This document shows positions 1-45,760 of a DNA stretch of 45,760 nucleotides, in pieces. The notes beneath the pieces were generated by a model. It was not told where the DNA came from. It worked only from the letters and a program-made list of their open reading frames with translations, and ran no database searches. Source of the DNA: a virus. A program made the position numbers and the translations under genes. Numbering within the stretch: the first letter of the stretch is position 1; each line of letters opens with the position of its first letter. The DNA is taken from positions 1 to 45,760 of IMG/VR virus record IMGVR_UViG_3300037883_000115; one strand, given 5' to 3'.

Positions 1-126
1 ACCGAGAACGCAGTCTATCGCTGGTTGGATCGCTCCCGCGGCGTCAGCGGCCCAGCGTCGATCCTCATGAGAATGTGGCTGGAAGAGGCCAGGGCGAAAA
101 ATACTGCGGAGGCCACATGTCCCTAA
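1..126 (+). CDS. Helix-turn-helix regulator, C-terminal fragment (cut by window start)
   Basis: Frame 1 is open from the first base and encodes 41 residues before TAA at 124-126. The visible part, TENAVYRWLDRSRGVSGPAS, matches the recognition helix and following turn of XRE/Cro-type helix-turn-helix proteins (TxNAVYRW then a short loop and a GPA helix start), followed by a short helical tail. The N-terminal half lies outside the window. It would bind DNA as a small repressor or activator, but the operator cannot be seen. It is transcribed away from the minus-strand morphogenesis block. Confidence 0.6.
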   Translation, partial: TENAVYRWLDRSRGVSGPASILMRMWLEEARAKNTAEATCP

Positions 127-153
127 CCTGCTGCTCCAGAAAGGCCAATCCCC

Positions 154-522
154 TTGGTCACCATCACCGCAACCGACCGCCGCCTGGAAATCCTGGGCCT
201 GGTCAACCTTGATCCCGCCGCCGCCCGCGTGCTCCTGGCCGACTACGAAAGCAACGTCTCCGCCAAAGACGAGCGCCGCCTGGTGTGCATCGTTGAGCGC
301 GCCGCCGAGCAGGCCGCCCTGCGCATCGACGACGACGAGCTGCGCATCACGATAGCCCTGGCCAGTAAGCATCCGCCTGTCATCCTCGCCAGAGCCGTCC
401 TGGCTCAGCACGAGGACGAAGAAGATTTCCGCTTCCTGACCGGTCTGGCAACCCTTCTGCGCCGCCCTGAAGAGCACGCCGAATACGCTCTTTTTGACGG
501 CAAGGTAAAAGCACGCAAATAA
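154..522 (+). CDS. Hypothetical protein, acidic, alpha-helical
   Basis: 122-residue open frame starting at TTG 154, the only possible start after the in-frame TAA at 124. A purine-rich AGAAAGG lies about 10 bases upstream. The product is rich in Ala, Leu, Glu and Arg and is probably all helical, with a repeated pattern of short amphipathic helices. It has no Cys pairs, signal peptide or membrane segment. It follows the HTH fragment by 28 bases and is followed at once by a strong hairpin, so it probably ends a short plus-strand transcript. I do not recognise the family. Confidence 0.6.
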   Translation: MVTITATDRRLEILGLVNLDPAAARVLLADYESNVSAKDERRLVCIVERAAEQAALRIDDDELRITIALASKHPPVILARAVLAQHEDEEDFRFLTGLATLLRRPEEHAEYALFDGKVKARK

Positions 523-552: not shown

Positions 553-584
553 CATCAGAAACCTTGCTACGAAAGGTCCCTGAC

Positions 585-1466
585 ATGTCTAGTTTACGAT
601 GGACGCTCGCCGCTGCCGTTGCGCTTCTGCCGCACATAGCCGCGCATAGCCGCGCATTGGCCGCCAAAGAAAAAGCGGTGGCAATTGCCACTAGCGCCGA
701 TCTCTACACCACCGGCGGCGACGGTTCGGTTTACCACGTCGATCCGCACTCAGGCCGCAGCGCTCATGTCGGAACGATCGACGTCCCCATGATCGCCCTC
801 ACCTACGATTCAGACCACCGCATTCTCTACGGCTTGGGTCCCGCGGTTTACGACCTCTTTCTCTGGAGCCATCTTTACCAAATCGACACCGCGACCTGGC
901 ACGCGACGGCGTTGGTTCCGCGTTTCGTGGTGGGTGACGGCAACGTCCAGGGCGTCGACATCGCCCTCGGCTTGGCTTACGATCGCGCCTCGGGCTGGAT
1001 TTACGTTATTCAATCTCCGACTTCGCACTCTGGGAATTTGCTCGCGGTCTCCACTTTCAGAGCCAACCCGACGACGGGAGAAGTGGCAGGGGTCGGCTCC
1101 TGGCGCCCGGACGACGACGGCTTCCCCTTTTACTACGCCGCCCTCGATCCCGTTGACGGTACGCTCTGGGGATTGCGGTATGATCCCGCCTGGGAAAATT
1201 GGTCCCTCGACAAGCAGACAGGCTTGCCTACTTATCGATCCGTGACGCCCCCCGCTGGCTTGCCCGCCTTTGGAAATCTGCCAAACATGGGTCCGGCGGC
1301 TTTCCATCCGCACAGCCATACGCTTTACCGCTACGCTTACGGCGATGGCAACGCCTGGCTGTATCAGATCGACCTAACCACGGGACAGGCAACCAAGGCC
1401 TCGGCGGCCTTCTCCGCGCCCGGTCATTCGATGTTCTTTGTTCCCAAGCAACTGGTTCGCCGCTAG
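585..1466 (+). CDS. Secreted beta-propeller-like protein
   Basis: The start is placed at ATG 585 (AAAGG 10 bases upstream) rather than TTG 564, giving 293 residues. The N-terminus is a signal peptide: basic SSLRW, a hydrophobic stretch, then Ala-rich ending ALAAKEK. The mature part has repeated blade-like units of the type DLYTTGGDGSVYHVDP, ILYGLG, LYQIDT, GWIYVI, TLWGL and LYRYAYGDGNAWLYQIDL, as in WD/NHL-like or DUF4394-like propellers. It is probably exported to the periplasm or outside. The architecture resembles the protein at 40266-40997. The role in the phage is unknown; it could be a lysogenic-conversion surface protein or a host gene carried along. Confidence 0.65.
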   Translation: MSSLRWTLAAAVALLPHIAAHSRALAAKEKAVAIATSADLYTTGGDGSVYHVDPHSGRSAHVGTIDVPMIALTYDSDHRILYGLGPAVYDLFLWSHLYQIDTATWHATALVPRFVVGDGNVQGVDIALGLAYDRASGWIYVIQSPTSHSGNLLAVSTFRANPTTGEVAGVGSWRPDDDGFPFYYAALDPVDGTLWGLRYDPAWENWSLDKQTGLPTYRSVTPPAGLPAFGNLPNMGPAAFHPHSHTLYRYAYGDGNAWLYQIDLTTGQATKASAAFSAPGHSMFFVPKQLVRR

Positions 1467-2877: not shown

Positions 2878-3690
2878 TTAAGCTGCGGCCGCCGTCATGA
2901 CGCGCGGCGCTACCGCGCTATCCGGGACCGCTTTACTCTCCACCAAGTTGCCCATGCCGTTCGCCGACCACGAGTCGCCCCAGCTATTCCAAATCGTGAT
3001 TGTGAAGGGCGAGCGCTTGACCAGGCGCACGGCGCAGACGCAATGAGACCACCAGTCGTAATCGACGACTACGGGCACGTTGAGCAGAAGAAGCGTGGCA
3101 AGCTGCGCCCTGGCAGTCGTCTTGTCGCTGCTCAGGTCCCACCAGCTCTCGCACTTGTTTAAGGCTGCGTTGCCGCGCATGGCGGGCGTATCATTACTGC
3201 GCGACATGCTTTGGAGCGGCCAAAACGCAGACGAAGCAATGCCGTTCTTGGCGATAAAGGACAGCGCTTCGCCGCCGAATCCTCCCTGATCCTGGTAGTT
3301 TTTGATGAGACATGCCACCATGTAGGCCGAGAAGGGGACGTAGGGCTGGTTATTGATCGCGCGCACGAGCGTGACTGCGCTCGTCGGGCCGTGCGCCCAG
3401 CAGTACCCCTTGCCGTTCTGATCGTAGCTCGGGATCGGGGAGCCATAGCTGCCCTTGTCGCGGATATGGGTCAGGCTCGATTGCTTGGCTTCCTGCTCGG
3501 CGATGCGGTCATCCCATTCGCTTTCGGGGATCAAGGGGATTGTCAGGGGGGCGGCAACGGCGAAGCAGCCTTGCGGATGCGTCTCGAAATTGCGCGGGCA
3601 CAGGCCTTTGGCGCGCTTCTGGCCGTCGGGGCCTATGTGGTCCACGTACTGCGTATAGTTCGAATCGTCGATCGTGATGAGGTTCGGCAT
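2878..3690 (-). CDS. Papain-like (C1-type) cysteine peptidase
   Basis: 270 residues. The catalytic set of a C1 peptidase is readable: oxyanion Gln91 and nucleophile Cys97 in QNGKGYCWAH, His216 in DYDWWSHCVCAV, and Asn235 in IWNSWGDSW. There is no signal peptide, so export would need a holin-type lesion or release with the virion. It lies in the late block with sigma factor, small membrane proteins and secreted proteins. Papain-fold enzymes are known in some phages and planctomycetes, but the substrate here is unknown. Options are cell-envelope protein degradation at lysis or entry, or cleavage of a virion protein. No conventional endolysin is visible in this window. Confidence 0.8.
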   Translation of the reverse strand: MPNLITIDDSNYTQYVDHIGPDGQKRAKGLCPRNFETHPQGCFAVAAPLTIPLIPESEWDDRIAEQEAKQSSLTHIRDKGSYGSPIPSYDQNGKGYCWAHGPTSAVTLVRAINNQPYVPFSAYMVACLIKNYQDQGGFGGEALSFIAKNGIASSAFWPLQSMSRSNDTPAMRGNAALNKCESWWDLSSDKTTARAQLATLLLLNVPVVVDYDWWSHCVCAVRLVKRSPFTITIWNSWGDSWSANGMGNLVESKAVPDSAVAPRVMTAAAA

Positions 3691-5195: not shown

Positions 5196-5595
5196 TTAAT
5201 TTGCCCCTCCCTATTTTTTGCGCATCGATTAGGTCGACCATGGCCTGTTTCTTTGCGTGCTCGTCCAAGTCTATCTGCGCCCGCTTGGCGGCGTCAAAGT
5301 CCTTGGGGTCGCCCGTGTGCTCGGCTACTTTTTTGGTCAGGTTCCTGATGGTCTCAAGCGCCAAGGCCCACTTGCTATTGAGCAAGCGGTGGTTCTTTTC
5401 GCCCGTCTCTTTCAGGTCGGCCATTTTCGCGTCGTTGGCTACAGTCGTTACCTCAAGGGTGCTCTTTACCTCCGCGACCTTGGCCGCCGCCGCGTTGGCG
5501 TAATGACGCTGGAGGTAGGCCATGATCGACATGATGACGGTGGTTGCCATGGACCAGAAGGCCGGGTTTTCGTAGAACTTTTCCGCTAGCAACAC
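5188..5595 (-). CDS. Membrane-anchored coiled-coil protein (spanin- or holin-like)
   Basis: 135 residues from GTG at 5595 (GGGAG upstream). The longer frame to 5781 lies inside the sigma gene and is rejected. An N-terminal hydrophobic segment, WSMATTVIMSIMAYL (about 11-26), is followed by a long charged helix (about 30-130) with heptad-like content, ending in Lys/Gly residues. One N-terminal span plus a periplasmic coiled coil is the shape of inner-membrane spanins and some class III holins. It overlaps the sigma factor stop by 10 bases. Confidence 0.6.
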   Translation of the reverse strand: MLLAEKFYENPAFWSMATTVIMSIMAYLQRHYANAAAAKVAEVKSTLEVTTVANDAKMADLKETGEKNHRLLNSKWALALETIRNLTKKVAEHTGDPKDFDAAKRAQIDLDEHAKKQAMVDLIDAQKIGRGKLNG

Positions 5596-6170
5596 GGGGC
5601 CACTCCCATTTCCGCGCGCATGCTCGCCATGCCCTGATCGCGCAGTTGCCGGACACGCTCGCGGGTCAGGTGCATCTCCTGGCCGATCTGGGCCAGGGTC
5701 TGATCGTGCATGTAGTACTGGGACACGACGTGCTGCTCGCGCTCGGGCAGGTGCCGGAGCGCTTTGCCTGCGGGCGTCCATTCGTCGGAGAGATCCATGG
5801 CGGGCTGTTCGGGCTCGCGCTGGATATAACGCGGCGAATCCTCGACCAAGTGCTCCACGTGGACGCGGCGACCCTCGAGGGCGGGCGCTTGCGGCACGCG
5901 GATACAGGCGCGACGGGTAACGGCCTCCGACATGACCATGCGGCGAATCACCAGGACAGCCAGGGTGGAAAACTTGGCCTTAGCGGGATCGAAATACTGA
6001 GCGGCCCGAATCAATCCCATATAAGCAACCGAGACCGCCTCATCAAAGTCGCCGGCGAATCCAGCCCGCACGCGCCACGAATGCCAAATTTGCTTGACCG
6101 CGAAATGGGCCAGGCCGCGATTCTGCTGGACCAAATAACGGAGGCGCACGCTGAGCTGGTCGTCGATCAT
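5586..6170 (-). CDS. Sigma-70 family RNA polymerase sigma factor
   Basis: 194 residues from ATG at 6170; the frame continues open upstream but that part is Cys/Arg/Pro-rich and not sigma-like. Region 2 is about residues 41-88 (DFDEAVSVAYMGLIRAAQYF then DPAKAKFSTLAVLVIRRMV) and region 4 about 137-190 (LPEREQHVVSQYYMHDQTLA, then the helix-turn-helix QIGQEMHLTRERVRQLRDQG). Region 1.1 is absent and region 3 is short, as in alternative sigma factors. It should direct host core polymerase to specific promoters, probably phage late genes. The 290 bases between it and the upstream gene are GC-rich and hold no convincing gene, only a weak GAAAGA/TCTTTC hairpin near 6440-6455. Confidence 0.85.
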   Translation of the reverse strand: MIDDQLSVRLRYLVQQNRGLAHFAVKQIWHSWRVRAGFAGDFDEAVSVAYMGLIRAAQYFDPAKAKFSTLAVLVIRRMVMSEAVTRRACIRVPQAPALEGRRVHVEHLVEDSPRYIQREPEQPAMDLSDEWTPAGKALRHLPEREQHVVSQYYMHDQTLAQIGQEMHLTRERVRQLRDQGMASMRAEMGVAPCC

Positions 6171-6460
6171 GGGCCACGCTGCCTTTTGGGAGAAAATGCG
6201 GAAAATGCGGGGGCGTGGCGTGCGGGCCGTCCCCATTCGGCGATACACGCTCGTTTCCCCGTTATACGCGCACGCCGAAAGATGGTGGACGGAGTGGCCA
6301 AAAAGGCACGCGAGATTTGCAGTCGACGCTCCCATTGCCGCATGGGTGCAGCGCAAGTATAGCGCGGCGGAGGGGGCCATGCGGCTAGCCTCCCTCACGC
6401 CGGCCGGCCGCAACAGGGCGGCCTTCTTGATTTTCCCACGAAAGAGCGGTCTTTCAGCGG

Positions 6461-6856
6461 TTATTTTCCACCGCAGCCGCCGCATTTTGGACCCACGTAG
6501 CCGCCCGTGTAGTTCCACAAGCCAATGGGGCAGCGCTGGGTGGCACAGTCGAGCTTGCCCAAGGGGATGGGCGGGATCAGGTGTATTTCGAGGTAGCAGC
6601 CGCACGCTGTGCAGCTATCGGTTTTCGGGTCGCGCTTCGGACAAGCGTTGCAATGGATGCGGCGCAGGGACTTTTCTTCCTTCGTGGGCCCGTGGTTACC
6701 TTTGGCGCGCCAGGCGATTTCGTGGGCGATGGCCTGAATGAAGGTCGTCACCGGTTTCTGTTCCGGCGCCGTGTCCCAATACTTCCGGTAGGTGGGATCG
6801 TTGTGGTAGAGCCAGCAAAGGCGACAGCCAGGCTTTTCGCAGGTGCAATCTCTCAT
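6461..6856 (-). CDS. Cys-rich zinc-binding virion-associated protein
   Basis: 131 residues from ATG at 6856, whose ATGA overlaps the stop of the upstream gene. The N-terminal Cys cluster (CTCEKPGCRLC) is followed by a second set: HCNACPKRDPKTDSCTACGC, then CATQRCPIGLW. The C-x2-C ... C-x2-CGC ... CP-G-W order is that of small phage zinc proteins often found near tail-fibre or baseplate genes. A C-terminal GPKCGGCGG adds another pair. It is probably structural or a protein-protein adaptor. Confidence 0.6.
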   Translation of the reverse strand: MRDCTCEKPGCRLCWLYHNDPTYRKYWDTAPEQKPVTTFIQAIAHEIAWRAKGNHGPTKEEKSLRRIHCNACPKRDPKTDSCTACGCYLEIHLIPPIPLGKLDCATQRCPIGLWNYTGGYVGPKCGGCGGK

Positions 6857-21531: not shown

Positions 21532-24500
21532 TCACCAGAGGGCGACCAAGCTGCCGGCCGTGGTGCCGGTCGACTTGACGCGCGTGATATTGAGATACAC
21601 GAAGGTGCCGGCTTGAAGGGCCGAGAGGGTCACGGTTTGGCCGTTGAGCATATTCAGGACAACGGCGCCCGTTGCGCCGATGTAGAGGGCCAGAGCGGGC
21701 GTGGGCAAATCCGTATTGTCGGAGGGAACGACCGCGGCGGCGTTTCGGAATCCCGAGACGCCCGAATCCTGCGCTGGCTGCCCGGGCCCGCCCGAAGCCT
21801 GGACGCGGAAGCTCCCCTGGCCGGTCGACACGTCAAAGGTGGCATCGCCCTTGTAGCTGACGGCGACTTGATGCGTGCCGACAGCCGGCGACGGGTAGGC
21901 AAAGGTCGTCTGCCCGCCTACCAAGGTTTGCGTTGCCTGGCTGCCGTTATCCAGGGTCGCCACGACTTGGCCCGTGGGCGTGCCGGTGTATCCCTGCCCG
22001 GCCGAGACCGTGACAACCACGGGCTCGTTGGCCGGGGAGGTGATGGAGGATGTAGCAAGCGTTACCTGGCTGGGCGTGAGTGGCGGCGAGGTCACGGTGA
22101 AGGACTGCAGGGTTTGGCTCGCGGCCCACGTGCCGTCGCCCTGGTAGTTCAGAGCGATCGTATGCGGGCCGACCAGGGGGCGGGCGAAGGTAAAGGTCGT
22201 CTGCCCGCCTACGAGTGTTTGCGTCACGGGGGCGCCGTTGTCCAGGGTTGCGATCACGTTTCCGGTGGGCGTGCCGCCCTGGCCGGAGTTGTCGGCGACC
22301 GTGACGGTACAGATTTCGTTGGTGGGCGAGACGATACTCCGCTGCATGGCCACGAAGATACGGCTGGAGCGCGTGCCGGTGGGCGAGGCGACGGTGAAGG
22401 TCGCGGTTCCCGAGCTGGTGGCAAAGACACTGTCGCCTTGGTAGTTGGCGGCGATCGTGTGTGTGCCGACCGAGGGACTTGGCCAGGTGAAGCTCGTCAT
22501 GCCGCCGGCGAGGGTCTGCGTCATCTGGCTACCGCCGTCGAGAGTCGCTATCACCTGTCCGGAGGGCGTGCCGCCGGAGCCGGTGACGGTGACGGTGGAG
22601 ACTTCGTTGGCGGGGCTGGTGATGTTGGCGGAAGTGGCGGTCGTGGTGGAAGGCGTCGACACATGGCCCTGGTTGGGGCCGTTGCCGTCCGTGTACCAGG
22701 CGAAGTTTCTGCAGCCGATGTCCGTTCCGTCCAGAGCCGCACGCTTGGCGGGCGAGCCGTTGCCGAGGGAATAGTCGCCGCCGGCGCCGCCGTTCCAGTT
22801 GGAGAAAAAGACGCCGGTGTAGCTGAGTTGATAGAGGTTGGTGTCTGCGGAGCCGGAACCGAGGTAGAGAGGACCGCTGTAGCCGGCGGGGGAAACCATG
22901 CCGCCGGAAAGACTGGTGGGCGCCGTGAGCCAGCCCTTAACGACGGGCCCGGGATCGGTTCCCGTCGCGCCGGCGCCGATTGCTTGGGCGGTCAAATAAA
23001 ACAGGTTGTTGCGGATGGAGCACGTGCCGTCGGCGGATAGCTCCTGGAAAACCTTGGGGGCGCCTGTGCCGCCCGCGAGGGGAACGTTCGTGTTCCGGTC
23101 TTGCAGTTGGTTCATGCCGTACTGCAAACAGCACACGAGGTTGTTGTTGAAGAGGAAATTCTCATGGCTGAAGTTGCCGTAGAAACTGCGGTAGCTATTG
23201 TCTCCGCCTATGACGCAGATGGAGCCGTTCATGCTCATGCGCGAAGTGGTCACCGTGTTATGGTCGACTGTGACCCCGATCGTCATGTTGGAGCCATTGT
23301 CCGTAGCTGTAAAACCGCCATCCATGGAAAAGAAACGTGGGAAGCCGCCGCCGGGGCCTTCGTCCGTCGCGATCCCGAGATTGACCGTACCACTGTGAGA
23401 TTTTGCGTTCGTGCAGGTAAATGTGCCGGCGCCCGGGTTGGTGCTCGTCACTATCGCCAGTTCGAAATCTGGGTTGAAAATGTAGGGAACCACGTTGTGA
23501 TCCGGATAGCCGAAGCAGATTTTCGAGCCGACTTGGATCGTGGCCGTCTGGCCGCTGCCAAGGATGAGCATGCCGGTTTTGGGATCGATCTGGGCTCCTG
23601 GGGACGGGTGGAGGACATCGACGGACCCAGGCACAAAGGCAGGGCTCCACGTATTGACTCCCGCGGCCACGCCGCCGCCCGCGTTGACTGTGGTCTTAAG
23701 AGCGACCACGCCGCCGGTGTGCGCGAAATTACCCAAGTCCTCAAAGAGGTTGTCTTGGATCAAAATTGCGCTGCTGGCTATGCCGGCCTGGGTCGTAGGA
23801 GCGCCCGTGTCGCCGCCGGGGTCGGTGGCGGTAATCTCCAGACCGGAATAGGCATCCACGAAATGGTTATTGGTAATGATCGCATCGTGGATCTGAATCC
23901 AGGGCGCTCCCTGGGGGGCCGTGTTGGGAAGATTGCTCGGCACAGCGCGCGGAGTCATCAGGATGCAGTGTCCTAACTGGTCGCGATGAATCCAGGAATG
24001 CTGGAAGGTGTTGTTGTCGATCTTGATGTTGCCGCCGGCCTTGAGCTCAAAGAGATTCTTGATGGTCCAGTTGGAGCCATCCCAGGAGGGGTCGTTGGCA
24101 TTCCAGGCCGGATTATGGCCGATTAGGTTGTACTGGACGAGGGATTGCCCGGCGCCGAAGGCCCCGAGCTGCATGTTCGTAATCGTGGGCTGGGTGCCGC
24201 CGAAGATGACGCATTCGGTCGCGGCCTCGATGTAGTTATTGAGCAGGCTGTAGGGACCGCAGCCGTTAAAGCCGTTGATGGCCTGTACGTCGCTCCCCGT
24301 GCCCTTGAAGTCGTAGAGGTAGGAATTCTTGACCGTGACGGCCTTGGCGTGAAGCTGCAGGCCGTGGCGGATTTCCTGGCCCGTGGCGCCTTTGAAGCCG
24401 CTCCAAAAGATGCAGCGATCGAAGACAATATTGTTGGGGAGCTGGCTGGCATCGTTCATGCTTTGGGGCCACATGAGCGGGGCGTTGGTTCCCTGCGTGC

Positions 24501-39705: not shown

Positions 39706-39781
39706 AGACGCGGGCAGGAATCGAACCTGCAATCTCGCCAGAATCACACTGGTCGCGCTCTGCCTATTGAGCTACCGCGTC
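39706..39781 (-). tRNA. tRNA-like gene with an expanded anticodon arm, isotype undetermined
   Basis: Acceptor stem GACGCGG/CCGCGTC (7 perfect pairs), D arm GCTC-AATAGGCA-GAGC with A14, GG18-19 and A21, T arm GCAGG-TTCGATT-CCTGC, discriminator T, no encoded CCA: all canonical. The anticodon arm is 20 bases instead of 17. It folds as CG(A)CCAG / CTGGCG with a bulged A and the loop TGTGATT, which lacks U33. A 9-base loop reading places GTG after a U, but the tRNA-His G-1:C73 pair is absent. It may be a degenerate tRNA or one with a modified anticodon structure. Confidence 0.7.
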
Positions 39782-40265: not shown

Positions 40266-40997
40266 TTATTCGTAGACGATTTGTTGGATGTACACATTGG
40301 CGGGATTGGCAACGGACGATTGCACGGTGCCCGTCGAATTAATCACTGCGGTAATCGTGTTGTTACCGATCGACGCTGGGTAAGTACCAAAATAGTGCTC
40401 AGTGCCACCATTATCCGCATAACAGGCCAAGCCAGTGAAGCTTTGCCTGCCGGTGTAAGTCGTGGCGCTCCCTGTGCTGGGCGTGATCACGTAAAAAGTG
40501 CCGAAGGTGTCCGAAGCGAGAATGTGGGAACCATCAAAGGTCGCACAAGCAATCAAGTTGGTGGGCGTAACGCTCATCGTTGAAAGTTGAACGGTCGTCT
40601 GAGCGCTCACGTCGATCTTGTAGACGTGAGCACTACTGCTGCCAACCCCGAGAGCGTAATAGATGTTGCCACTGCTCCACCCCAAGCCACCAGGAGATTC
40701 GAGATAAGTGGTGGCAATCCCGGTATCGAATTTGTATGTATCGGAACTACCGGGAGTGAGCTTGTAGACACCACCAGCGCTATCCAGGGCGTAGTTGCCA
40801 CGCGCAAGCCCTACGTAAAGTCTGGTAATGGTTCCCTGATTCGTGACAGCACCGGTCGAAGTGTTGATCTTGTCGAAGTTGTTCGTGTTGCTGTCCACGC
40901 CGTAAAGAGCCGGCGTCAAGGCCTGCGCCGGGATAGCCAGCCCAAAAGATACCAAGATTGCCGCAAGAATCATCCTGAACCAACCGATACTTCGCAT
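40266..40997 (-). CDS. Secreted beta-propeller-like protein
   Basis: 243 residues from ATG at 40997 with GGAGGG 9 bases upstream. It has a signal peptide (RMILAAILVSFGLAIPAQAL, cleavage near residue 28), then repeated blade-like units: LYGVDSNTNNFDKINTSTGA, GNYALDSAGGVYKLTPGSSD, IYYALGVGSSSAHVYKIDVS, FYVITPSTG and TEHYFGTYP. It is composed like the 585-1466 protein but with another sequence. It may be an adhesin-like or moron-type surface protein. Lower GC than the structural genes. Confidence 0.65.
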   Translation of the reverse strand: MRSIGWFRMILAAILVSFGLAIPAQALTPALYGVDSNTNNFDKINTSTGAVTNQGTITRLYVGLARGNYALDSAGGVYKLTPGSSDTYKFDTGIATTYLESPGGLGWSSGNIYYALGVGSSSAHVYKIDVSAQTTVQLSTMSVTPTNLIACATFDGSHILASDTFGTFYVITPSTGSATTYTGRQSFTGLACYADNGGTEHYFGTYPASIGNNTITAVINSTGTVQSSVANPANVYIQQIVYE

Positions 40998-41075
40998 GGA
41001 TGCAAACCCTCCTACGGTTTGTGTCCCGGGGGCGGGGATGTTCACGCATCGCCCGCCCCAACCAAACGAGAGAAA

Positions 41076-41102
41076 TAGGCCGCCCACCCAGCGGGCGGCC
41101 TA
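41076..41102 (-). terminator. Strong hairpin terminator upstream of the secreted genes
   Basis: TAGGCCGCCC / GGGCGGCCTA, 10 perfect pairs with a 7-base loop (41076-41085, 41093-41102). On the minus strand it is followed by TTTCTCTCG, so it fits intrinsic termination of the methyltransferase transcript. The remainder of the 239-base gap (40998-41236) shows no gene. Confidence 0.6.
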
Positions 41103-42556: not shown

Positions 42557-43555
42557 ATGCACATCGTCCCAAGGACCAACGGCCTTCCGGCCGATCGTTT
42601 CCTTTTCGCCGAGTTCGAACCAGTCAATAGGCAGCCCCAGAAGCCGCAAACTGTTACGGATCTGGTCCTCCGCTATCTCGACCACCTGCGCGTCCGTGTG
42701 GTCTCGGGCGAATATTCCGCCCGAGGCTTTGCCGACGTCGAGCGCGACCTGGGCAGGTTCGTAAAATTCCTGAAGGACAAGCCACTCGGCCAGTGCAAGC
42801 GGCAAGACCTGATCGATTGGCTCCTGGCGAACCCCAAGTGGAAGAGTAACTCCACCAAGAAACGGAACCTGGCCGAGATCGCGGCGTGTTGGTCTTGGGG
42901 GGCAGACGAGGACTTCCTGCCCAGTGGAAATCCCTACCGCCGCCCCAAGAATTTGAGACTGCGGACGCGGCGCAGGCCCGACGCCGAACCATGGCATTAC
43001 ATTGCCTTCATGCGTAAAGGCTCGAAGGCCTTGCGCCGCATCCTTTACTACTTGTGGAACACCGGCTGTAGACCCTGCGAGGCCCGCGAATTGACCTGGG
43101 ACATGGTCCACTTCCCCGAATCGGTCGTCATAAAAGAGGACCACAAAACCATCAATGCCCAGAAGGACCCCCAGCCCCGGATTATCGGCCTGGAGCCGCG
43201 TCTTGTGCGCTTCCTCCGGAACCTTTACCGGCAACGGGCGAAGGGCCAACTCTACGTATTCCTGAACGTCGAGGGCGGCCCCTGGACAAAGGACGGCCTC
43301 GACCAGAACTTCCGCCGCTGCCGCCTGCGCCTGGGCATGAGCGCTCAGGTGACGCCTTACTGCCTCCGCCATTCCTACACGACGGAAGGGATCGAGGGCG
43401 GCGTCGGTGAGCGCCAGATGGCGGACCAATTGGGACACACGAATACCTGGCTGATCGCTCACTATTCGCATGCCAAGGTGAAAGCCCGGCATTTGCGGCG
43501 CGTCGCCAGCGATGTACGCAAGCGCCGGCGCGACGCCCGGCGTAGCGATGGGTGA
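42557..43555 (+). CDS. int: Tyrosine integrase
   Basis: 332 residues. Core-binding helical domain at about 30-125 (VTDLVLRYLDHLRVRVVSGE ... WSWGADEDFLPSGNP). Catalytic domain: Arg172 in NTGCRPCEAREL, Lys near 197 (DHKTIN), Arg271 in TPYCLRHSYTTEG (Tyr at the usual box-II His position), His294 in LGHTN and nucleophile Tyr303 in AHYSHAK. It should recombine attP with a tRNA-His attB. It lies about 2 kb from the putative core at 45651-45692. It is transcribed opposite to its neighbours. Confidence 0.9.
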   Translation: MHIVPRTNGLPADRFLFAEFEPVNRQPQKPQTVTDLVLRYLDHLRVRVVSGEYSARGFADVERDLGRFVKFLKDKPLGQCKRQDLIDWLLANPKWKSNSTKKRNLAEIAACWSWGADEDFLPSGNPYRRPKNLRLRTRRRPDAEPWHYIAFMRKGSKALRRILYYLWNTGCRPCEARELTWDMVHFPESVVIKEDHKTINAQKDPQPRIIGLEPRLVRFLRNLYRQRAKGQLYVFLNVEGGPWTKDGLDQNFRRCRLRLGMSAQVTPYCLRHSYTTEGIEGGVGERQMADQLGHTNTWLIAHYSHAKVKARHLRRVASDVRKRRRDARRSDG

Positions 43556-43612
43556 ACGCCAGATCGGGCCACTGGCGATCAGTGAACGGTTAGACATGTA
43601 AACCTCCATTCC

Positions 43613-43651
43613 GGGCGTCTTGATATTCCAGATCGGAACATCAAGACGCCC
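43613..43651. terminator. Bidirectional terminator between convergent integrase and ParB-like genes
   Basis: GGGCGTCTTGAT / ATCAAGACGCCC, 12 perfect pairs, with an inner TTCC/GGAA extension and a small loop. It sits in the 111-base space between the 3' ends of the convergent genes, the classical place for a two-way stop. There is no long U-run. Confidence 0.65.
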
Positions 43652-43666
43652 TAGCACGCGTCCGGT

Positions 43667-44635
43667 TTAGGCCGCGATCTCCGGCAAGCCCTTCTTGGTG
43701 TTGACGTTCAGGCTGTGGATCTTCTCGCCTTCGCGGAAAGCGTTCCACGCCTTGACGCACTTGGCGTAACAGATGCCCGGCGCGAGCGGCACTTTGTCCT
43801 CTTTGGACTTAACGAGTTCAGCCGAGAGGACGGCGCTGGGGGCCGAGTCGTCTGCGACGTTATTCATGGCGACCTTGTCCCAAAACTCACGGGCACCGGA
43901 TTCGCTCGTGATGAAGGTTCCGTACATGGCCCCAGTAATTGCCGATTTTTTCATTTCCGGCGTCTTCACAGAGAGAGTCTCGTCTATCCAGTTGACAAAG
44001 GAATGAAGCGACTCTTCGAAAAACAGATCGTAGACCTCGTCGCCGCTCTTGACAGGAACTTTCTCGATGTTGCGTCGATACCATGCCACCCCTTCCACGG
44101 CGAGCTGGGCCTTCTTTCTGTCGCAAGAGGCAACCTGCTCCTGAAGGCCCTGGAAAGCCCCAGAAACGTCCGTCTTTGACCGGGATGACCAACGGGCGTC
44201 GAATTGACGAAACAGATCCGCCATGCCCTGCTTCGTGTCTGCTTGGAACTTGTCGAGGTGGACGGACAAGCCGTCGGGCAAATCTCCGTCGAATTCCATA
44301 ATGGCCCGGCTCGAATGCTGACCATTCATGCGATAGTCTTTGCCGACAAAACGAACCAGCGCCCAATTGAAAGGAATCGCCCTGCCCTCGGCAATCGCCT
44401 CTTTAAGCTTCTTCACTCTGTCCGGATTCAATTCGCGCTCGGTTGGAGACTGAGGCAAGCCGTTGTGCCTTCCGGCAAACTCCCTCCCTTTCTCCCTATT
44501 GAGCACCACTGTTTCGGATTCGATGCGCTTCCAGCCTCGATATTCGGCCATGATGGCCTCCTTTGAAATCATCCCCTGTTTGGTGAAGACGGCGAAATGC
44601 CGCTTGCTCCCAAGTGAGGGCGGTGATTCACTCAT
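43667..44635 (-). CDS. ParB-N-like domain protein
   Basis: 322 residues from ATG at 44635 (GAGGAG 7 bases upstream and overlap with the previous stop); ATG 44551, with GGAGG upstream, is an alternative giving 294. LNPDRVKKLKEAIAEGRAIP followed by YRMNGQHSSRAIMEFDG is the ParB/sulfiredoxin-like nucleotide-binding loop (xxNGQHxxxA). The rest is helical (DLFRQFDARWSSRSKTDVSG). It may act as a regulator or nuclease-like factor. It is coupled to the HTH gene, so a partition, immunity or replication pair is possible. Confidence 0.6.
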   Translation of the reverse strand: MSESPPSLGSKRHFAVFTKQGMISKEAIMAEYRGWKRIESETVVLNREKGREFAGRHNGLPQSPTERELNPDRVKKLKEAIAEGRAIPFNWALVRFVGKDYRMNGQHSSRAIMEFDGDLPDGLSVHLDKFQADTKQGMADLFRQFDARWSSRSKTDVSGAFQGLQEQVASCDRKKAQLAVEGVAWYRRNIEKVPVKSGDEVYDLFFEESLHSFVNWIDETLSVKTPEMKKSAITGAMYGTFITSESGAREFWDKVAMNNVADDSAPSAVLSAELVKSKEDKVPLAPGICYAKCVKAWNAFREGEKIHSLNVNTKKGLPEIAA

Positions 44636-45446
44636 TGGACAACTCCTCGTACAAGCCCTTCACGAGTCGTTCGAGAAGAACGATCTTGTGGAGAATGGCT
44701 TGAGCGGAAATTGTGGTCACGTTCCTATCGGTGAGCCCCCGGGCTTCCTTCAGCAGGGGCATTGCCTCTTCGTAAAAGTGGACAACCTTCTCCGATTTGA
44801 TCTGCGGCTTATTGGGCAGCTTGCGTATGCGGAAAAGGTCCTGCCCCTTGACGCGCTTCTCCTCGACCATGCAACCGTGCGTGTTGCGTTCCCTCATCAG
44901 AGCCACGGCGCTTCGCAGCCGCTCCTCATCCACGCCTTGGATTTCGAGGTCGGCCAAGACTTGCTCGCGGGTCATCCAGTCGCCATCGGCGTAGTCCTTG
45001 ACGAGCATCTTGCCCACGTCGATTTTTTGGCGGGCAACGTCGATGCCCAACGGGTCGAGCTGGAACTTGGCTTCGAGGATTTGGCGGGCCTGGTCGAAGC
45101 GGTCTTTCTCGTTGTGCTTCTTGCCGTCCGGAGAGCGCTTTCGAGTCTTCGACCAAGCTTTCTGAAAAGCCTTTCGCGTCAGGCTTAATGGAATGGAGGC
45201 GACAGGAGCCTTGGAGCGATGATTATACCCCAGGGTATAATCAACGAAGCGCCCAAATAAAAGCCATTGCGAGACGGTTTTCTGAGTCCGCCCCACCTTC
45301 TCCGCAATCTTCTCCTGCGTCCAACCGGACTCCACTAGCAACAGCGCATCGGCCTGGTCCCACTTGCCCTCGACGGCTTTGGCCTCGGCGGCGCGCTGCT
45401 CTTGGTTATGCTGCCAGCGCGCATCGAATTCCTGGTCGCTCATCAT
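44628..45446 (-). CDS. Helix-turn-helix protein with a second winged-helix-like region
   Basis: 272 residues from ATG at 45446 (GAGGA upstream). ALLLVESGWTQEKIAEKVGR then TQKTVSQWLLFGRF is a clear helix-turn-helix, near residues 38-70. A basic middle (RKAFQKAWSKTRKRSPDGKK) and a second helical, wing-like segment (MTREQVLADLEIQGVDEERL ... LFRIRKL) follow. It could be the lysogeny regulator or a replication/partition factor. Its operon includes the ParB-like gene and starts at the attachment site. Confidence 0.6.
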   Translation of the reverse strand: MMSDQEFDARWQHNQEQRAAEAKAVEGKWDQADALLLVESGWTQEKIAEKVGRTQKTVSQWLLFGRFVDYTLGYNHRSKAPVASIPLSLTRKAFQKAWSKTRKRSPDGKKHNEKDRFDQARQILEAKFQLDPLGIDVARQKIDVGKMLVKDYADGDWMTREQVLADLEIQGVDEERLRSAVALMRERNTHGCMVEEKRVKGQDLFRIRKLPNKPQIKSEKVVHFYEEAMPLLKEARGLTDRNVTTISAQAILHKIVLLERLVKGLYEELSNE

Positions 45447-45706
45447 GGCGTCCTCGAAACAAGACCGCGGCCGCTGCACACCGGGCAGTCTCCAGGTGTC
45501 AATCCAGCGCCTACACAGAACGAGCATTCAGCAAGCCTGTAGCCCATGTGCCATGTGCACTGCGGGCAGGCCCCGGTGCCGCCGCAAAAGTCGCATTCGA
45601 CCTCTGGCAATGGATTGGATTGTCTGGAAGATTGTCCACTGATCGCCAAACTGTGGCTCTGGAGGTCGCGGGTTCGAGACCCGTCACTCACCCTAGAATT
45701 GGCCAT
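45443..45706 (-). CDS. DnaJ-type zinc-finger protein with the att core in its 5' coding region
   Basis: 87 residues from ATG at 45706 with GGAGG 5 bases upstream. The first 25 residues are encoded through the tRNA-His-like core (the GSRTRDLQSHSLA reading is a well-known result of translating tRNA 3' ends). From residue 36 there are repeated CxxCxGxG-type units: CDFCGGTGACPQC, CSFCVGAG and CPVCSGRG, as in the DnaJ zinc finger. If the upstream start is artefactual, the coding part may begin later; no other good start is visible. Confidence 0.5.
   Translation of the reverse strand: MANSRVSDGSRTRDLQSHSLAISGQSSRQSNPLPEVECDFCGGTGACPQCTWHMGYRLAECSFCVGAGLTPGDCPVCSGRGLVSRTP
45651..45692 (+). other. 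tRNA-His 3'-half, putative phage attachment core (attP or attachment junction)
   Basis: The sequence carries the anticodon loop CTGTGGC (GTG anticodon), stem TCTGG, variable loop, T arm GCGGG-TTCGAGA-CCCGT, acceptor 3' strand CACTCAC and C73 of a tRNA-His. The 5' half of the tRNA is absent: upstream bases 45646-45650 no longer fit the anticodon stem perfectly. Phages that integrate into tRNA genes carry this kind of 3' fragment as attP. The integrase lies 2 kb away. Only one copy was found in the window. Confidence 0.7.
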
Positions 45707-45760
45707 CGCGACCTCCGTGTGTGGTTACTTGCTTGTCGGGTGGTCAATCTTAATTCGCTG

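Follow-up and report, generated by a model that had tools for sequence, protein, structure and literature searches.

Does the insertion of a temperate phage into a host tRNA gene also decide whether one of its operons can be expressed? The question arises at the right end of the IMG/VR record IMGVR_UViG_3300037883_000115, a single linear sequence of 45,760 bases that was analyzed in full (hereafter the window), in which the 3' half of a tRNA-His gene, the putative core of a phage attachment site (attP), lies within the 5' part of the gene that heads a three-gene operon. This layout, which the earlier note had described, is confirmed: the core at 45650-45692 is located in the open reading frame (ORF) 45706-45443 (-), between a strong Shine-Dalgarno (SD) sequence with its ATG and the zinc-finger body of the encoded protein. 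Genes for terminase, portal, major head, tape-measure and tail-fibre proteins, RecT and a tyrosine integrase are present in the record, which represents a temperate tailed phage without a close relative in the collections searched. The arrangement of these sequences somewhat favors the reading that the tRNA half is an attP placed inside the 5' coding region and that this placement affects the expression of the operon.

The core comprises, on the plus strand, the anticodon loop CTGTGGC (GTG, His), the stem TCTGG, the variable loop, the T-arm GCGGGTTCGAGACCCGT, the acceptor strand CACTCAC and C73, and the anticodon stem may extend back as far as 45646. ARAGORN detects no full tRNA at 45650-45692, and the Rfam tRNA model gives 16.8 bits, which is under the cut-off of 29, as expected of half a tRNA. 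On inspection of the sequence, the 5' acceptor strand is unpaired at the core, and the weak D-stem pairing to its left is probably due to chance. A 3' tRNA half that lacks the 5' counterpart and sits in phage DNA with an integrase gene is the form taken by the attP of a tRNA-targeting tyrosine integrase. No second copy of the core is present in the window, and searches with the exact and a relaxed core found no match in IMG/VR or in 84,980 genomes. The coordinates of the core and of the surrounding features are collected in Table 1.

Table 1. Features at the putative attachment core and in the adjoining operon and integrase region.
Feature	Position	Strand	Sequence or basis
Putative attP core, tRNA-His 3' half	45650..45692	+	ACTGTGGCTCTGGAGGTCGCGGGTTCGAGACCCGTCACTCACC; sequence, Rfam tRNA, ARAGORN; single copy in window
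Zinc-ribbon ORF (87 aa) with four CxxC pairs; antisense tRNA-His forms codons 6-19	45443..45706	-	Sequence
SD of zinc-ribbon ORF, 5 nt ahead of ATG 45706, right of core	45712..45716	-	GGAGG
Left arm of perfect 10-nt inverted repeat, within core	45661..45670	+	GGAGGTCGCG
Right arm of the same repeat, includes SD	45707..45716	-	GGAGGTCGCG
Candidate arm-type site for the integrase, on the left side of the core	45628..45639	+	AAGATTGTCCAC; 11/12 inverted match to 45740-45751
Candidate arm-type site for the integrase, on the right side of the core	45740..45751	-	AAGATTGACCAC; inverted match to 45628-45639
Helix-turn-helix (HTH) protein gene, ATGATG start overlapping zinc-ribbon stop	44628..45446	-	Pfam HTH_23 3.9e-6; start geometry
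Third operon gene, 322 aa, starts within HTH gene at 44635	43667..44635	-	PHROG 5931 (unknown function) 1.5e-7
17-bp hairpin separating the operon from the convergent integrase, resembling a terminator but without a T-run	43613..43655		Fold of 43600-43666: -35 kcal/mol, z -5.5
Tyrosine integrase, convergent with operon, 2.1 kb from core	42557..43555	+	Pfam Phage_integrase 3.9e-15; PHROG integrase 3.4e-32

The reading frame of the zinc-ribbon ORF runs uninterrupted through the tRNA half, and the predicted protein consists, in order, of MANSR from the right flank, VSDGSRTRDLQSHS from the antisense tRNA and the junction, a linker, and the four-CxxC body, which weakly resembles the zinc fingers of DnaJ and PriA. 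Peptides encoded antisense to tRNAs are long familiar from false annotations, and the open frame therefore means little alone; the ribosome site and the absence of another start are what count. The SD of ATG 45706 forms a duplex of -10.2 kcal/mol with the anti-SD, which ranks this start in the top 1.4% of the ATGs in the window, and no ribosome site is found at the other in-frame start codons of the ORF (6, 20, 33 and 54). Additionally, an in-frame start of this strength occurs in 0.4-0.5% of random 68-nt right flanks, which were drawn as 68-mers from the window or generated as order-2 Markov sequence. A comparison of codon usage across the start gave no information, as even the Cys-rich zinc body scores as non-coding, and the confidence of the structure predictions was too low for use.

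One alternative explanation is that the record is the end of an integrated prophage (attR), so that the 68-base right flank would be host chromosome, from the region downstream of tRNA-His, and the SD-ATG would be a chance frame. The linear form of the record without end repeats, the shortness of a right flank that has no relative, and the plus-strand genes of unclear origin at the left end of the record are consistent with this explanation. However, it is unlikely in view of the rarity of such a start, the absence of a second core copy from the record, and two inverted repeats that connect the right flank with the core and with the phage side. The AAGATTGTCCAC/AAGATTGACCAC pair, which could be integrase arm sites, is of a type found in about 1% of random flanks, and the GGAGGTCGCG type is found in 0.25-0.4%; both together occur in 0.2%, a pattern that was spotted after the fact and in which the GGAGGTCGCG pair overlaps the SD, so that this pair and the start test are not independent. 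The right flank is thus probably the phage P' arm, because the in-frame start is rare by chance and the inverted repeats tie the flank to the core and to the left flank. The proviso of the earlier note, that its idea would fail if the bases right of 45692 were host DNA, is thereby made less likely to apply.

Two further interpretations of these repeats were considered and rejected. One continuous large palindrome at the core is not supported, as the two inverted repeats are nearly concentric but the bases between them are unmatched. Masking of the SD by pairing with the core in a hairpin would use a possible 10-bp stem, but this stem is absent from the minimum-energy fold (z -1.2).

A second alternative accepts the attP and treats the overlap as incidental: the zinc-ribbon ORF would use a weak internal start, or the operon would be driven from inside, and integration would have no regulatory effect. 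In favor of this, T-arms read antisense are often open, many of the complete tRNAs in the survey described below are also crossed by SD-ATG ORFs, and a related core in the Burkholderia phage Magia is non-coding. The internal starts nevertheless lack ribosome sites and the start at 45706 ranks high among the ATGs of the window, and we regard this explanation as improbable. A far less credible origin of the tRNA half is the decay of a tRNA gene carried by the phage itself, with no attachment core involved. A complete tRNA-Ser on the phage and the weak D-stem pairing that the covariance model sees left of the core would fit such an origin, but the clean break at the anticodon arm, the intact T-arm and acceptor strand and the lack of a 5' acceptor strand are what an integration core typically shows, and an integrase is present.

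The recurrence of the layout was surveyed by scanning IMG/VR for GGAGG-ATG followed by an antisense T-arm, which returned at least 120 stretches; complete tRNAs and short chance frames make up most of the matches listed. In two of the matches listed (L053 and L092, on unrelated contigs), the frame enters a recognizable gene, an integrase lies upstream, and no full tRNA exists at the site. In L053, the ATG lies 45 nt past the end of the integrase, and the reading frame that it opens passes through a tRNA-Ser half before entering the gene of an HNH endonuclease (Pfam HNH_3 1.8e-8). In L092, the order is integrase, small gene, GGAGG-ATG, tRNA-His half and a PagP-like outer-membrane gene, whose product is 38% identical to the PagP of a Burkholderia phage from residue 64; no good start is found between the core and the gene body. 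Two other viral contigs, L028 (site 13062, reverse strand) and L027 (site 1349, reverse strand), have an integrase that runs into an SD-ATG and then an antisense tRNA half, and no recognizable protein follows in that frame.

Several observations weigh against an attP that controls the operon. Among the matches listed, ORFs of at least 60 aa cross 13 of 44 half tRNAs and 13 of 67 whole tRNAs (p 0.26), which is no significant excess, and in L053 an internal start is possible at TTG84, with a duplex of -6.0 kcal/mol. The isolated phage Magia (NC_070954.1) serves as a control: as in the present phage, a tRNA-His 3' half occurs together with a tyrosine integrase, which adjoins the core in Magia and is related to that of L092, and the Magia core is near-identical to that of L092; however, it lies in non-coding DNA with a terminator and without an SD-ATG. 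Overlap of a core with a coding start is therefore not required for integration, and the overlap in L092 probably arose secondarily. At the locus itself, the distance between integrase and core is beyond the usual, no sigma-70-like promoter is found in the 68 nt of right flank present, and no relative or host genome that would place the right flank as phage is found in IMG/VR or the genome collection.

If the core is the attP, the temperate phage would integrate at the host tRNA-His gene through a sequence that forms codons 6-19 of the first gene of the operon. In the free circular phage, translation would initiate at the ATG that lies to the right of the core, cross the tRNA half in the antisense direction and continue into the zinc-ribbon protein. 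Integration would generate B-O-P', in which the right flank follows the restored tRNA, and P-O-B', which contains the gene body, the core and host DNA. The operon would be cut from its start, because host DNA from downstream of tRNA-His would then precede the core: the ribosome site, the first five codons and any promoter to the right would move to the other prophage end, and the prophage copy would be headless unless the host sequence supplies a start. Excision would rejoin the start and the operon. The operon is thus predicted to be on when the phage is free (after infection or induction), and in the prophage it would be off or otherwise driven. The earlier note had proposed that recombination replaces the start region and that expression differs between the free and integrated states; the geometry holds provided that the core is attP, whereas the attP state, the position of the promoter and the change in expression are what we infer from the anatomy.

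A comparison with known systems reveals both similarities and differences. In integration-dependent immunity (Broussard et al. 2013, as described in PMC9934374), mycobacteriophages and Gordonia phages carry the attP core within a coding sequence and the gene is rewritten by integration; tRNA attachment sites also occur, including a tRNA-Thr case. The location of the core inside a coding sequence would be shared here, provided that it is attP, and to this extent the parallel drawn in the earlier note stands. However, the present case would be a mirror image, in which the 5' end (start, ribosome site and presumed promoter) would be exchanged instead of the 3' end, and a repressor identity is not supported: no repressor family match is found for the zinc-ribbon ORF, and the core occupies its early codons and lies away from the C-terminus (VSRTP), where a degradation tag of an immunity repressor would be expected. 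In myxophage Mx8, attP lies inside int and integration yields a recombinant gene (PMC6070905), which is similar in that attP is within a coding sequence but differs in that the 3' end of the integrase changes there and the 5' end of another operon would change here. For ICEKp1, PMC13023037 describes state-dependent promoter switching of int, a gene beside a tRNA attachment site that is under different upstream control in the integrated and circular states; unlike the present layout, this is the integrase gene of an integrative and conjugative element, and, as described there, the promoter changes with no coding sequence crossed by the core. A search of the open-access literature for attP overlapping a gene start did not find this layout described, which, with subscription papers outside its scope, is weak evidence of novelty.

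The rest of the operon is compactly arranged. The HTH gene is coupled to the zinc-ribbon gene by an ATGA overlap, with ATGATG at 45446/45443 and GAGG upstream, and its start is this site and not ATG 45527 of a longer ORF. The three-gene map of the earlier note is retained, but its designation of the third product as ParB-like is not, as searches of Pfam, NCBIfam and PDB give no match for this protein. Searches of IMG/VR with the zinc-ribbon, HTH, third and integrase proteins found no relatives, and the relatives of the large terminase are distant and have mainly structural genes in common. The best plasmid match of the integrase (35%) is on a Planctopirus plasmid, which is a weak hint at a Planctomycetota host. 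An exact 12-nt inverted copy, CACTGATCGCCA, is present just past the integrase stop (43573-43584) and left of the core (45636-45647), and may mark another site for the integrase or reflect chance (BLAST E 0.36).

The two ends of the record share no sequence that would indicate circular closure; the frame is open across a hypothetical join, which is meaningless by itself. The left end, 1-522 (+), begins inside a small ORF (TENAVYRWLDRSRGVSGPASILMRMWLEEARA...) that by eye resembles the C-terminal part of an HTH protein, has no family match, and adjoins an ORF of 122 aa. If the genome is circular, the left-end ORF would diverge from the zinc-ribbon operon in the style of an immunity region. Elsewhere, the phage carries a complete tRNA-Ser (TGA) gene far from the core, 39706-39781 (-), and two beta-propeller-like genes, 564-1466 (+) and 40266-41087 (-), whose matches to DUF4394 and DUF6923 are both under the curated cut-off and which are unusual phage cargo. 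A papain-family cysteine protease gene, 2878-3690 (-) (Pfam Peptidase_C1 1.1e-6), is located near the late genes, and the late region encodes a sigma-70-like protein of 339 aa with regions 2 and 4, 5586-6605 (-). The tail-fibre gene (1284 aa) contains three 152-nt repeats at a spacing of approximately 294 nt, 21844-22583.

Taken beyond this phage, we tentatively raise the possibility that unrelated temperate phages place an attP core derived from a tRNA within the opening codons of a gene or operon, whose expression would then follow the state of the phage. If this is true, integration and excision would themselves constitute an on/off switch of the operon without a dedicated repressor, and the 5' end would be exchanged, in contrast to the 3' end in the known integration-dependent immunity. 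Genes of this type would have a signature by which they may be found, namely a ribosome site, an ATG, an antisense tRNA half and a gene, and they may be discarded by annotators as tRNA artefacts.
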